The position numbers and the translations under genes are program-made. Of a stretch of 64,000 nt of DNA, positions 15,448 through 22,136 are shown in pieces; position 1 is the stretch's first letter, and each line of letters opens with the position of its first letter. The DNA comes from Methanosarcina flavescens (GTDB lineage: Archaea > Halobacteriota > Methanosarcinia > Methanosarcinales > Methanosarcinaceae). Under the pieces are notes generated by a model. It was not told the origin of the DNA. It did no database searches and saw nothing but the letters and a program-made list of their open reading frames with translations. The DNA is taken from positions 2,914,001-2,978,000 of the forward strand of contig NZ_CP032683.1 of NCBI RefSeq assembly GCF_001304615.2. Direction: 5' to 3'.

Positions 15448-15699
15448 TGCATCATCTCCATTTCTCTTTACGTGATTTTGTTTTATTCCCTAACATGTTT
15501 CTTACATTAATATGCCTATTAACCAATTTTAAAGTCTCCCCTGTAAAATTAAAAGACTCAAAAAATCAAGAGAAAATAGGAGAAAACAAGAGAAAATAGG
15601 AGAAAACAAAAGAGAGGAGGAAGCAAAAAAGCGGATTCGTTTATAATATTTCCATTTCCAGCAAAGGCTCTACAGGTTCCTGGGAAAAAATAAGTTTTT
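15448..15699. other. spacer with short direct repeat
   Basis: Contains two tandem copies of an 18-bp unit (AAGAGAAAATAGGAGAAAAC) around 15569-15606. No gene seen. Confidence 0.45.
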
Positions 15700-15783
15700 A
15701 GAAGAAAAAGGGCATCCGTTTTTATTAAGGAGGAACAGGGATAAAGAGGGGGGTGTTTAAAAGGAGAGTTCACAGATGCCCAG
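15700..15783 (-). ncRNA. candidate small RNA 1 with C-rich loop
   Basis: On the minus strand a TATA-like box (AATTTTATATATTTA, 15801-15815) is followed about 25 nt later by GGGCATC (15775-15781). This pairs with GATGCCC (15710-15716). The enclosed ~58 nt are pyrimidine-rich and include CACCCCCCTCTTTATCCC and TTCCTCCTTA, complementary to G-rich ribosome binding sites. A T-tract (CCCTTTTTCTTC) follows the stem like a terminator. The layout recurs at 16595-16693. This is a candidate sRNA that could mask Shine-Dalgarno sequences. Confidence 0.45.
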
Positions 15784-15894
15784 TAGTATAATAATACCCA
15801 TAAATATATAAAATTGATTTTATACTGCTATTTTATGGGAATTTTTCGAAGTACTCAAATTATTTTCTGTAAAAACTTTTTTTCCTGAAATTCC

Positions 15895-16213
15895 TCAGAA
15901 ACCGAGTACAGAACCTGCGCTCCTTTTTAAAAACTCATAGGCTATTGTTCCTTCTTCCGGACCTTTTCCTTTTAAATGGAAGCCTTTCTTTTCCAGAACC
16001 CGAATTGAGGCTTTCAGATGGGATATGTATAAGCAATAATGCTGCCCCTTTTGAGGCTGGAAGATGCCCACTGTACCATTGATCGAACGGCCTCGGTTGC
16101 GTATCCTCTGCCGTGATAACTGGCAGGCAAGGAATACCCGATCTCAAGAGTTCTGTTCTTATGGGCAAGGAATTCTCTGTTTCCTATCAAAATCGATTGT
16201 TCGGGATCTTTCT
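15895..16213 (-). pseudogene. GNAT acetyltransferase (RimJ/RimL type) pseudogene
   Basis: The minus strand encodes a clear GNAT acetyl-CoA-binding core, IGYSLPASYHGRGYATEAVR (about 16060-16150). It stops at TGA near 16018, then resumes in another frame as ASIRVLEKKGFHLKGKG, and ends at TGA 15895-15897. These are the central and last motifs of Acetyltransf_3 proteins. The N-terminal region upstream of 16213 is not open in any one frame. At least one frameshift and a missing start make this a broken gene. Confidence 0.75.
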
Positions 16214-16594
16214 GGCATAGAATTCATTAAAAGTTACAGATTTTTCGTTCCCTTGCCTGAATTCGCATGATAAAATCCTCAATTGTCCCATGTAATTCCA
16301 GAAAATACAGCTTCGTAGCGGCAGGAAAAAGGTATAAATGTTCGGTATTGGTGGAAAATAGAAGACATGTATTAGATTTGGGACTACTTTTAAATAATCT
16401 TTCTTATTAAATAATATTAAGATACCTTCAGGACTGTGAGTTATAAGGGAAATAAACGAGATGCAGTTGAAATTGGTGAGTCTCTAAGATATATAGGCTA
16501 AGATATATAGGCGACGAAAAGAAAACTAAAAACTATGAAAAAAGTTATAAAGATGGGAAGGCTAAAGAAATGAATATGTAAAAATTTCGAGAAA
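16214..16594. other. spacer
   Basis: No intact gene. It may hold the scrambled 5' end of the GNAT pseudogene (to about 16280). A short direct repeat AAGATATATAGGC occurs twice at 16486-16513. Confidence 0.4.
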
Positions 16595-16693
16595 TTGAAA
16601 ATTAAAGGGAGAAGGCATCTGATATTGGGGATGTTTGGGAGTTTGGGGGGTAAAAATGATTTGGGTATAAGAAAAGCGTTTATCAGATGCCTT
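16595..16693 (-). ncRNA. candidate small RNA 2, paralog of the 15.7-kb element
   Basis: Minus-strand AATTTTATATATTA (16713-16726) precedes by about 25 nt AAGGCATCTGATA (16681-16693). This pairs perfectly over 13 bp with TATCAGATGCCTT (16612-16624). The loop is C-rich (TTTACCCCCCAAACTCCC, then AAACATCCCC) and a T-rich tail follows (CTTCTCCCTTTAATTTTC). Box, spacing, stem core (GGCATCTG/CAGATGCC) and C-rich loop all match the element at 15700-15783. Confidence 0.5.
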
Positions 16694-16973
16694 ACACTAT
16701 AATATGTGTCACTAATATATAAAATTATTGTTATAATTTTACCTTGTCGATTTTATGAGATTCAAGCAAAGAAAAATCAGGAATGTTATAATTTCCCGAT
16801 TTTTCTCTTAAACCCTGGGCCAAACATCGAATTGCAGACTAAACCTTAAATTTACAAGCTTATGACAAATCCAAATGGCAGAAAAAATATATAAAGTTGA
16901 GTTCTTTCTGGATTTATTATGTTTTTATGTTTAGCTTTATAGATCTGGTTGTAACAGGAGATTTGAGGTTATC
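16694..16973. other. spacer with promoter regions
   Basis: Holds the minus-strand TATA-like box of the candidate RNA (16713-16726) and the upstream region of the cupin gene. No other gene seen. Confidence 0.4.
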
Positions 16974-17464: not shown

Positions 17465-18745
17465 ATGGATAGAGAAGACCTTTCACCTGGTTTTAAGGAT
17501 GTTCTTGACTTCAAGTTTGTAGACGCACTTTTTGGCAGAAGGGCACGCCGTTTCTTTATGGGGGCTTCAATTCCAGATGGCTATTTCAAGTACAAATCAA
17601 AGCATAATCTTCTGCCTCTGACCGAAGAGGAGCAGATGCTGGTGCTTTCGGCAGTAGCAGGCAATACCGGCTGGCACAATCTGATTATGTGCGGGGAGAG
17701 ATATGCACCTGACCTTTCCAACTATGCCTGCAGTGCAGGAGGACGTACTTTTCCATCGGCTGCCGGTTTCCACACAAGTGAACTTTTTTTCACAGACGAT
17801 ACCGGCGTTTATTTCTTCGAGACTCGTGATGCTCCCGAACTTGCCAGGCGCTCGGAAAACGGGACTTTCGAGACGGAAGAATTGCTCAGGGCACACAGAG
17901 CGAGAGTTAGAAAAATTGCAGACGGCAGGCTGAAGATTCCTCCTGAGACTCCATATGTCGAGGCCCACAATATCTGGGTCGTCAACCATCCGGGCACAAC
18001 ATTTATTATTCCAGTTGCCGACCTTGCCCAGCACGTGCTTGCTGGGCTCTGTTACTACACGCAGAACGGGGTGTGTTTTTTTGATGACGTGCATGGGCAA
18101 AGGATAGAAAGGCTTGAGGAATTTAGCAAGCTTGTTGACACCGAGAATCCCTTACCTTTAAGTTTTCTTGAGTTGTGGTCGTTCTCGGAAGCCACTGCAG
18201 AATTTTCAATTGCCTGTTACGCGGGAATGCTTATGCTGCAGGCAATGGGATTGGGCGGCTGGATGTTCAACGGCATGGACCCTTTTTCAGTTCTCGGAGC
18301 GAGTGGGAACCCCAACGTACCCGGACTTGGTTTCAGGCATGATACGGATGAGCGCTGGTCCCTTTCCAATCCTACCGGGCTTCCGGGTGTGTTTGAGGGT
18401 TATACGCCTCCTCACTACAAGAATATGAACCAGGTCGTAGATGCCCTGACTGCAAGAATATTCGGTTCCGGAGGCCCTTTCAATCCGGAAACCCCGGGTT
18501 ATTACAAAGATACAAAGGCAGTCCGAAGCAGGGCAAAGCGACACGATGAAGAGTTCAAGGCATGTGTTGCTTTACAGGCCCAGTACATTTACAACCGTTT
18601 CGGGAAATTTCCTGGCACGGTTCCGAGCATTCTTGTCATGCCCTATCTTCAGGCACAGCACCTTGATCTCGAATTCTATGACCATTTTTATGAGAAAGGA
18701 GCCTATCTTGAAACCCATTCCAGGCACATGAAACGCTGGCACTAA
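17465..18745 (+). CDS. 426-aa hypothetical, possibly nitroreductase-like
   Basis: No certain family. The N-terminal region (ALFGRRARRFFMGASIP, then LTEEEQMLVLSAVAGNTGWH) recalls the start of nitroreductase-fold proteins, where an Arg-rich motif binds FMN and a substrate helix follows. AMGLGGWMFNGMDPFSVLGA in the middle recalls their glycine-rich segment. The protein is about twice the usual nitroreductase length. Many Trp, His and Tyr residues and no membrane segment suggest a cytoplasmic enzyme. GGGGAGTTTGGC precedes the ATG. The product may be a flavoenzyme, but this is weak inference. Confidence 0.6.
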   Translation: MDREDLSPGFKDVLDFKFVDALFGRRARRFFMGASIPDGYFKYKSKHNLLPLTEEEQMLVLSAVAGNTGWHNLIMCGERYAPDLSNYACSAGGRTFPSAAGFHTSELFFTDDTGVYFFETRDAPELARRSENGTFETEELLRAHRARVRKIADGRLKIPPETPYVEAHNIWVVNHPGTTFIIPVADLAQHVLAGLCYYTQNGVCFFDDVHGQRIERLEEFSKLVDTENPLPLSFLELWSFSEATAEFSIACYAGMLMLQAMGLGGWMFNGMDPFSVLGASGNPNVPGLGFRHDTDERWSLSNPTGLPGVFEGYTPPHYKNMNQVVDALTARIFGSGGPFNPETPGYYKDTKAVRSRAKRHDEEFKACVALQAQYIYNRFGKFPGTVPSILVMPYLQAQHLDLEFYDHFYEKGAYLETHSRHMKRWH

Positions 18746-20996: not shown

Positions 20997-21207
20997 TCAT
21001 ATAGAGCCAAGAACAAAAATTCCAAACCAAAAATACTGGAAACCAGCATTATGACCAGGATCGAGAAGACCAGTTATATACAAAACTGCAGCATAACTGA
21101 AAACAAGAGAAGCAGTCACCCCGCACACATATAGTGCTGCTAAAATGTGTTTACCCGTTACTAGCCGATCTTTAAGGTCGTTGTCCTTAATAAATAACCG
21201 TTCTTTT
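20997..21207 (-). pseudogene. C-terminal fragment of a membrane protein joined to the transposase frame
   Basis: Beyond the IS end the transposase frame continues for about 70 codons. They encode a polar stretch and two hydrophobic helices ([34 protein letters not shown]), and the frame ends just before the DUF488 gene. No matching upstream half was found on the other side of the IS, so this looks like the 3' remnant of a host gene truncated by the insertion or an associated deletion. Confidence 0.55.
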
Positions 21208-22136
21208 GGCTCTGTAGAAATCCTTAATTTAATCCATAATAATTGTATTACTTTTTTGTTTATATTATAGACTATTAGTTTAACTTTTACTTCTTTTACT
21301 TGATTTCTAACCTTTCTTGCTCTTAATGTTTCTCCAAATTTTCTTTTTACAACAGATATTATTGTCTCTACTATATTCCTTCTATTGTATTTGATCTTAT
21401 CAAAGTCTTTGTTTAATTGTTTTCTATATTTTCCGTTTATTCTCTTTCTTTTTCTTTCTCTCAAAGGTACTATTGAATCTGCTTTTATCTCTTCTCTTAT
21501 TAGAGTATGAATTTCTTCGGAATCATATCCTTTATCCATCACATAACATTGAGACTTTCTTGACTTGTTTGATTGTCTTATCAGAGTCTTTGCATGCTTG
21601 ACATCATGATCTGTTTTTTGGCTAATTTTCCATCCTAATATTACTTTTTTAATAGTGTCTACTGATATTGAAGTTTTAAGGAAGCTCCTTCGGAGCTTCC
21701 CTGTTCTCTTAGAATAATAATGACTTGCATAAGAACTCGTAAATCCTGTTGCATCAATTGCCGTAATGAGAACTTTTTCTCCATGTGAGTAAAATAGTTT
21801 TAGAGTTTTTGACAAAATTAGGTTAAACAATGAAGAGGGAATTCTGGACACAAACTTTTGAAGAGTAGTGTAATGAGGAACCTTATCAAGGTCAAGTTTT
21901 TTCTTTATACTGTTCATGAGGTCAACAAGTTCTACAAAGTCACGGTAGTCTGTACTTATATACTCCTTCAATAAAACAAGAACAAGAAGCTGATGTTGAG
22001 TATAAACACGTTTGGAATATTTGCAGGAGTAAAGGTTCAGTCTGGAAGACTGAACCGTTTTAAGACTGAGATCAATAAATTTAATATACTTATTTGATGA
22101 CAATAGCAATTGCTCCTTTGTTTTTTGTGTGGACAA
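20997..22136 (-). CDS. IS4/IS5-type DDE transposase reading through its IS end
   Basis: The transposase part (about 310 aa of the 379-aa frame) carries a DDE core: Asp in ITAIDATGF, Asp in [11 protein letters not shown], Glu in [19 protein letters not shown]. It begins with a TTG near 22136 or a nearby internal TTG behind AAAGGAG. The frame has no stop inside the IS; it runs through the left terminal repeat into flanking DNA, adding about 70 foreign residues. The core is intact, so the element may be active. Confidence 0.85.
21208..21223. repeat. IS terminal inverted repeat, left
   Basis: GGCTCTGTAGAAATCC, perfectly inverted at 22200-22215. Confidence 0.85.

Follow-up and report, generated by a model that had tools for sequence, protein, structure and literature searches.

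A multi-copy family of predicted small RNAs with a closing stem and a C-rich loop in Methanosarcina

Two related elements on the minus strand

Within the window, i.e. the whole stretch of 64,000 nucleotides that was analysed, two minus-strand elements, here called A and B, lie 0.9 kb apart among a cupin gene, a CMD-family gene, genes for aldo/keto reductases and a trypsin-like gene. Across the two, a stem of 9–12 bp closes a C-rich loop from which G is nearly absent, and in both a TATA box precedes the element by about 29 nt. Their common strand and spacing, as well as the succession of TATA box, stem and C-rich loop, had been described by a sequence-only reading of this DNA and are confirmed here. 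The features of the two elements are the following:

16612..16693, minus strand: element A, predicted small RNA from stem to stem, with predicted ends
16713..16726, minus strand: TATA box of A, AATTTTATATATTA
16682..16693, minus strand: 5' stem arm of A, AAGGCATCTGAT, from folding and stem covariation
16612..16623, minus strand: 3' stem arm of A, ATCAGATGCCTT, from folding and stem covariation
16672..16676, minus strand: conserved U-run CTTTT in the loop of A, from k-mer enrichment
16644..16651, minus strand: conserved C-run ACCCCCCA in the loop of A, from k-mer enrichment
15710..15781, minus strand: element B, predicted small RNA from stem to stem, with predicted ends
15802..15815, minus strand: TATA box of B, AATTTTATATATTT
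15772..15781, minus strand: 5' stem arm of B, GGGCATCTGT, from folding and stem covariation
15710..15719, minus strand: 3' stem arm of B, ACGGATGCCC, from folding and stem covariation
15759..15764, minus strand: U-run CCTTTT of B, from k-mer enrichment and sequence
15746..15756, minus strand: C-run ACACCCCCCTC of B, from k-mer enrichment and sequence
15729..15736, minus strand: GTTCCTCC of B, the sole anti-Shine-Dalgarno-like core of the pair, from sequence

We infer from their sequences that both A and B are transcribed, the transcript of A probably ending just past the 3' arm, in a T-rich stretch. When the fold was compared with dinucleotide shuffles, z-scores of −5.8 (A) and −4.6 (B) were obtained and none of the 200 shuffles equalled it. 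Likewise, A and B are the only places in the window with the pattern GGCATCTG-N40-70-CRGATGCC, which did not occur in 100 shuffles of the window; A matches the stem and spacing pattern on both strands, its arms being palindromic. The stem had been read as identical in the two elements, and it is indeed paired in both, except that the one of B comprises 9–10 bp with one G·U pair and is not a perfect GGCATCTG/CAGATGCC. The loop of B contains CACCCCCC in addition to GTTCCTCC.

Two further observations concern the surroundings of the elements. Between A and B lies the remnant of an acetyltransferase-like gene, with stops and frame changes (window 15880–16320, minus strand), and a similar sequence is also found between the copies in related genomes. 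A 426-aa protein without a Pfam match, encoded on the plus strand (window 17465–18745), is kept beside the small RNA cluster in most genomes examined.

Range of the family and covariation of the closing stem

The host genome is a single contig of 3.28 Mb and belongs to a group of 30 genomes of one genus. A nucleotide search carried out before any model was built retrieved A in 11 of these 30 genomes and B in 16, the homologs often forming tandem pairs with a spacing of about 0.5–1.1 kb. The first covariance model, made from 32 copies out of this search and with a seed chosen by the core motif GGCATCTG/CAGATGCC, detected copies in all 30 Methanosarcina genomes, mostly 2–8 strong ones in each, and such a multi-copy family supports the earlier proposal that A and B are paralogous small RNA genes. 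The covariance search for more copies that had been recommended was extended with a second model (R2), built from 55 diverse copies, which places the family in 58 of the 237 genomes of the class: all Methanosarcina, two more genera of its taxonomic family (g4 and g5) with several copies each, and g11 with one, the hits being weaker in other families of the order. A and B score 86.8 and 71.7 bits, respectively; as both sit in the seed of the covariance model, these values are no independent support, which comes instead from the homologs of the nucleotide search, because they were found before any model existed. In a control of 800 kb of Methanosarcinaceae DNA from elsewhere the top score was 19.4 bits, compared with 37–83 bits for the copies that were accepted as members.

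No match at the gathering threshold was found for A and B in Rfam 15, and with E-values up to 10 the only matches were far below the gathering scores; nine further loci, distant ones included, had no match in Rfam 15 either. A limited search of the open literature retrieved no earlier report of a family with the structure and range described here, and some of its members may well be contained in the 2009 list of M. mazei small RNAs. A scan of named genomes returned 13 stretches, 12 of them from Methanosarcina records. The match in a Chloroflexi MAG (L086) was rejected as a GC-rich chance match in which the promoter arrangement is absent. Clusters of 3–5 members were noted near CMD and aldo/keto reductase genes (L073:3334-5504, L066:5569-8979 and L082:2382-18335).

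The sequence-only reading had staked its proposal on conservation of the stem in relatives. The stem is kept: in an alignment of 55 sequences 93% of the stem cells are paired and compensatory changes on both sides occur in 9 of the 11 pairs, with 52 double-change cells versus 13 in column shuffles, while in controls with slid arms pairing falls to 30–45%. The core GGCATCTG/CAGATGCC is almost constant within the genus, in part because the seed was chosen by that motif, so that this constancy carries little weight; what supports the stem are the pairs next to the core and the distant members. Indeed, copies within one genome differ at the pairs flanking the core and yet stay paired (G-C, A-U or U-A), the flanking pair being A-T in A and G-C in B. 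Other genera retain the same plan with different stems, namely GGCATGTGG/CCACATGCC, GGTGTGTG/CACACACC, GGGCAGGT/ACCTGCCC, ATGCGAGCGGG/CCCGCTCGCAT, TGAGTGAGCGG/CCGCTCACTCA and TTGTGAGCGGG/CCCGCTCACAA. As far as sequence comparison goes, these data establish the closing stem as a real RNA structure. A variant stem, AAGACATCTGA/TCAGATGTCTT, with a compensatory change from G-C to A-U, was observed in two Methanosarcina genomes, G003 and G005, G020 having a close relative of it, and the members that carry it (L205, L206 and L207) have a loop poorer in C.

The two elements thus display the features that define the family, i.e. a TATA box about 29 nt upstream, a compensatory stem, and a loop with CUUUU followed by C5 and with little G. 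That A and B are genes of a multi-copy small RNA family, extended to an order-wide one, is strongly supported, and we have very little doubt that the small RNA family is real.

Promoters, neighbouring genes and loop motifs

A TATA-like box is located at the expected upstream distance on the sense side of 83 of the 85 copies, compared with a single one of the 85 on the antisense side. In six copies of A the promoter block (−45 to −20) is 91% identical, whereas the flanks reach 34–52%, and in eight copies of B the block identity is 93%. Over the four subfamilies, identities amount to 77–93% in the promoter block, 79–83% in the RNA and mostly 10–66% in the flanks, the best conserved flank being the upstream one of B (62–78%). 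A T-run of at least four residues occurs within 60 nt downstream of 72 of the 85 copies.

The CMD gene also adjoins copies in genus g5 (L165). Copies of subfamily C are found between ATP-pyrophosphatase-like and PurE-like genes in several species, and those of subfamily D elsewhere, the gene names at the loci of these two subfamilies being our own reading of the sequences. The family loci are syntenic between species, and conserved loci with unrelated neighbours point to stand-alone RNAs; on these genomic grounds action in trans is the most likely mode for the members. The host genome has two DDE transposase genes that are nearly identical (L063:2184-3287 and window 20997–22136), and one copy lies directly before the subfamily C small RNA gene, whose TATA box is still intact.

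The 85 loops, which range from 34 to 100 nt across the family, consist of 38% C, 30% A, 29% U and 3.6% G, and in the predicted ensemble the C-runs are 97% unpaired. There are on average 2.9 C-runs per loop, and up to 6. In 42 of 46 non-redundant loops the U-run falls within the first 22 nt, and the first CCCC of these loops is situated on average at mid-loop. Compared with composition-shuffled loops, the same 46 are enriched in CTTTT (36 vs 5.9), ACCCCC (32 vs 5.5) and CCCAAA (20 vs 3.7), and GTTCCTCC is common to the loops of subfamily B. Judged by eye, an additional small hairpin seems to separate the C-rich half from the 5' arm in subfamilies C and D.

Proposed masking of G-rich leaders and other readings of the family

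We propose that each RNA of the family, about 75–110 nt long and non-coding, would be transcribed from a TATA promoter of its own, with its start at or beside the stem. The two ends would pair into a stem of 9–13 bp and leave the interior as a single open loop nearly free of G, with a short U-run (CUUUU) followed by a C-rich half containing runs of C5–6. This unpaired half could base-pair in trans with G-rich stretches of mRNA leaders, the best targets being G-run ribosome-binding sites (GGGGG), and such pairing would hinder the initiation of translation. The stem would shield the RNA ends and hold the loop in its open state, and the U-run is a possible binding site for a protein, Sm-like or other. 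Taken as a whole, a trans-acting, stem-closed family whose C-rich loops mask G-rich leaders is our best explanation, to which we give a nearly even chance. As to the main mechanism, masking of ribosome-binding sites and leaders is the leading but unproven candidate, and we hold it tentatively, at somewhat below an even chance.

The target statistics draw on stretches totalling about 0.48 Mb of the host genome; pairing was analyzed over about 0.46 Mb, comprising 329 predicted genes, with the loops of the four G000 copies. Pairing with start regions is about 3 kcal/mol better than pairing with coding sequence, for the real loops and for shuffled ones alike. The target prediction suggested by the sequence-only reading therefore yielded no preference greater than that of composition-matched loops: since shuffles behave alike, the preference for ribosome-binding sites is compositional and reflects C-richness. 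There is no sign that the loops are tuned to ribosome-binding sites in general, and the complementarity beyond composition that marks an RBS-masking small RNA was not observed in this comparison of real with shuffled loops. Words mimicking the 16S tail are not enriched in the 46 loops either (observed/expected: CCTCC 9/12.1, ACCTCC 1/4.4, CACCT 5/10.9). The idea of an anti-Shine-Dalgarno loop thus holds in part: ribosome-binding sites are preferred over coding sequence and the C5 run would pair best with G-run Shine-Dalgarno sequences, but CCUCC and ACCUCC are not overrepresented and shuffles perform equally.

The energetics of G-run sites present a more specific scenario. Like GGAGG, GGGGG is concentrated in the host genome between −15 and −5 relative to the longest-ATG starts. 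The computed pairing of UGGGGGU is stronger with the small RNA C-run (−15.5 kcal/mol) than with the 16S tail (−9.8 kcal/mol), and the reverse applies to GGAGG (−7.7 vs −11.4 kcal/mol). From these computed energies, the small RNA could outcompete the ribosome at G-run sites and spare canonical ones. If the C-run sorts mRNAs by type of Shine-Dalgarno sequence in this manner, cells would have a novel means of prioritising translation. G-run Shine-Dalgarno sequences do not track the family: they also occur in a related genome without it (G124), one of two such genomes has more of them, and they are no commoner where the family is present. A search for a target shared by several species yielded none.

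For masking there are precedents among the characterised small RNAs of M. mazei: sRNA41 occludes ribosome-binding sites (PMC6560208), and sRNA162 masks one via an unstructured linker; the latter RNA is 191 nt long, constitutive and processed, and comprises three stem-loops (SL1–SL3) and a 39-nt single-stranded linker (PMC3510493). Like sRNA162 and sRNA171 (PMC3510493), the members of the family are intergenic, have an unstructured stretch and occur as paralogous copies, masking being established for sRNA162 and proposed here. Unlike them, the family RNA has a single end-to-end stem and one open loop of 34–100 nt; for A and B an RNA of about 80 nt closed by one stem is predicted, which lacks the architecture of three stem-loops and linker. 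An ArsR-type regulator gene (MM2441) adjoins sRNA162/171; the neighbours of A and B are the cupin, CMD, aldo/keto reductase and trypsin-like genes. Genome G008, probably M. mazei, has its copies in the corresponding A/B gene cluster. The archaeal small RNAs cited here for comparison are single genes of one species. The present RNAs form a family: nearly every Methanosarcina searched has several copies of it, the design is simple and conserved, and the hosts are amenable to genetics. To our knowledge, very few archaeal small RNAs have known targets, and the model gives concrete loci to compare with existing dRNA-seq data.

The main rival is a protein-binding sponge, in which the U-run and the C-runs, displayed on an open loop by several copies, would titrate or recruit an RNA-binding protein and the stem would only close the loop. 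In bacteria, CsrB and RsmZ RNAs titrate CsrA by displaying repeated GGA hairpins, and the family would resemble them in putting repeated short motifs on show for a protein; it differs from them in that the motifs are C-runs and a U-run within one open loop and that no protein is known. CTTTT and ACCCCC are kept over deep divergence while the remaining loop and the stem sequence change. This is further than expected for changing mRNA targets and was counted against masking, and a protein ligand explains it equally. The number of C-runs per loop is also in line with a sponge, and a sister element with AAAAACGG repeats (see below) looks like a multi-site protein lure. However, G-rich leaders are good pairing partners of the loop as well, there is no known candidate for the protein, and the characterised Methanosarcina small RNAs work by base pairing (PMC3510493, PMC6560208). 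We thus regard the sponge as possible, though rather unlikely; if it were correct, it would point to an archaeal RNA-binding regulator not yet known.

A different proposal is that the members are homologs of M. mazei sRNA41, the family being then partly known. sRNA41 occludes the ribosome-binding sites of several genes (PMC6560208, PMC5867862), among its reported targets being the ACDS operon, so that function and genus fit. In three genomes the A-type loop ranks in the top 2–7% at one late gene of that operon, but its other sites are mostly unremarkable: no special complementarity of the remaining ACDS ribosome-binding sites to any family member was seen, and multi-site complementarity of the operon to family loops was not found. 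Homology to sRNA41 is, in our view, quite improbable.

It is very improbable that the arms, although inverted repeats with an 8-bp core near-invariant within Methanosarcina, are the two halves of a DNA site for a transcription factor or the termini of a very small mobile element. The pairs flanking the core co-vary between copies within a genome (element A has A-T where B has G-C, and A-U, U-A or G-C occur inside), which a single DNA-binding protein would not demand, the spacing varies from 34 to 100 nt, TATA is on one side only and the loci are syntenic; the MITE or operator reading was rejected on the copy-specific covariation and variable spacing.

We give equally little credence to the reading that the family codes for a small protein, whether as a short mRNA or as a dual-function RNA; such coding has been proposed for sRNA154 (PMC11456600). 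That RNA of 130 nt has a leaderless 20-aa frame at nt 4–66 (PMC3177094, PMC11456600) and an NrpR operator in its promoter (PMC3177094); it is likewise a Methanosarcina small RNA and one of its loops masks a ribosome-binding site. A closed frame of at least 8 aa occurs in 15 of the 85 copies, as by chance, and a GTG frame overlaps B (15558–15773). Against coding stand the 3.6% G of the loops, the presence of ATG in just 16 of the 85 copies, the lack of any conserved open frame in the family alignment and arm changes that compensate for pairing. The family RNA starts with the stem, leaving no sRNA154-type frame at nt 4–66, and the NrpR operator GGTA-N6-TACC is found in none of the 85 family promoters. 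A search for the sRNA154 locus with a published primer, its restriction site masked, gave no convincing place.

Returning to the masking of leaders by a stem-closed family, a broader version of it concerns the sister element, in which a stem, AGGCATCTGT/ACAGATGCCT, and TATA spacing as in the family are combined with a loop of about 6–16 AAAAACGG repeats. The stem may accordingly be a general scaffold displaying a single-stranded loop. One may conceive a modular, order-wide small RNA system, in which one end-to-end stem, common to the paralogs of a lineage and swapped between lineages, would hold open interchangeable loops, those with C5 runs occluding G-run (wobble) Shine-Dalgarno sequences and sparing GGAGG, and those with AAAAACGG repeats serving another ligand; we consider this version improbable. 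The sister element is present in the host genome (L065:2606-2744, i.e. contig 1893105–1893243, plus strand) and in at least five others (L192, L193, L194, L228 and L229), and its repeat number varies by species, being 7 in the host, 9 in G002 and 16 in G003. Triplets of AAAAACGG (at least three, with short spacing) occur in 38 of 111 Methanosarcinaceae genomes, a control with the reversed pattern giving few matches. Many AAAAACGG arrays lie outside such stems, in several contexts (L212-L229), and some of these may be coding.
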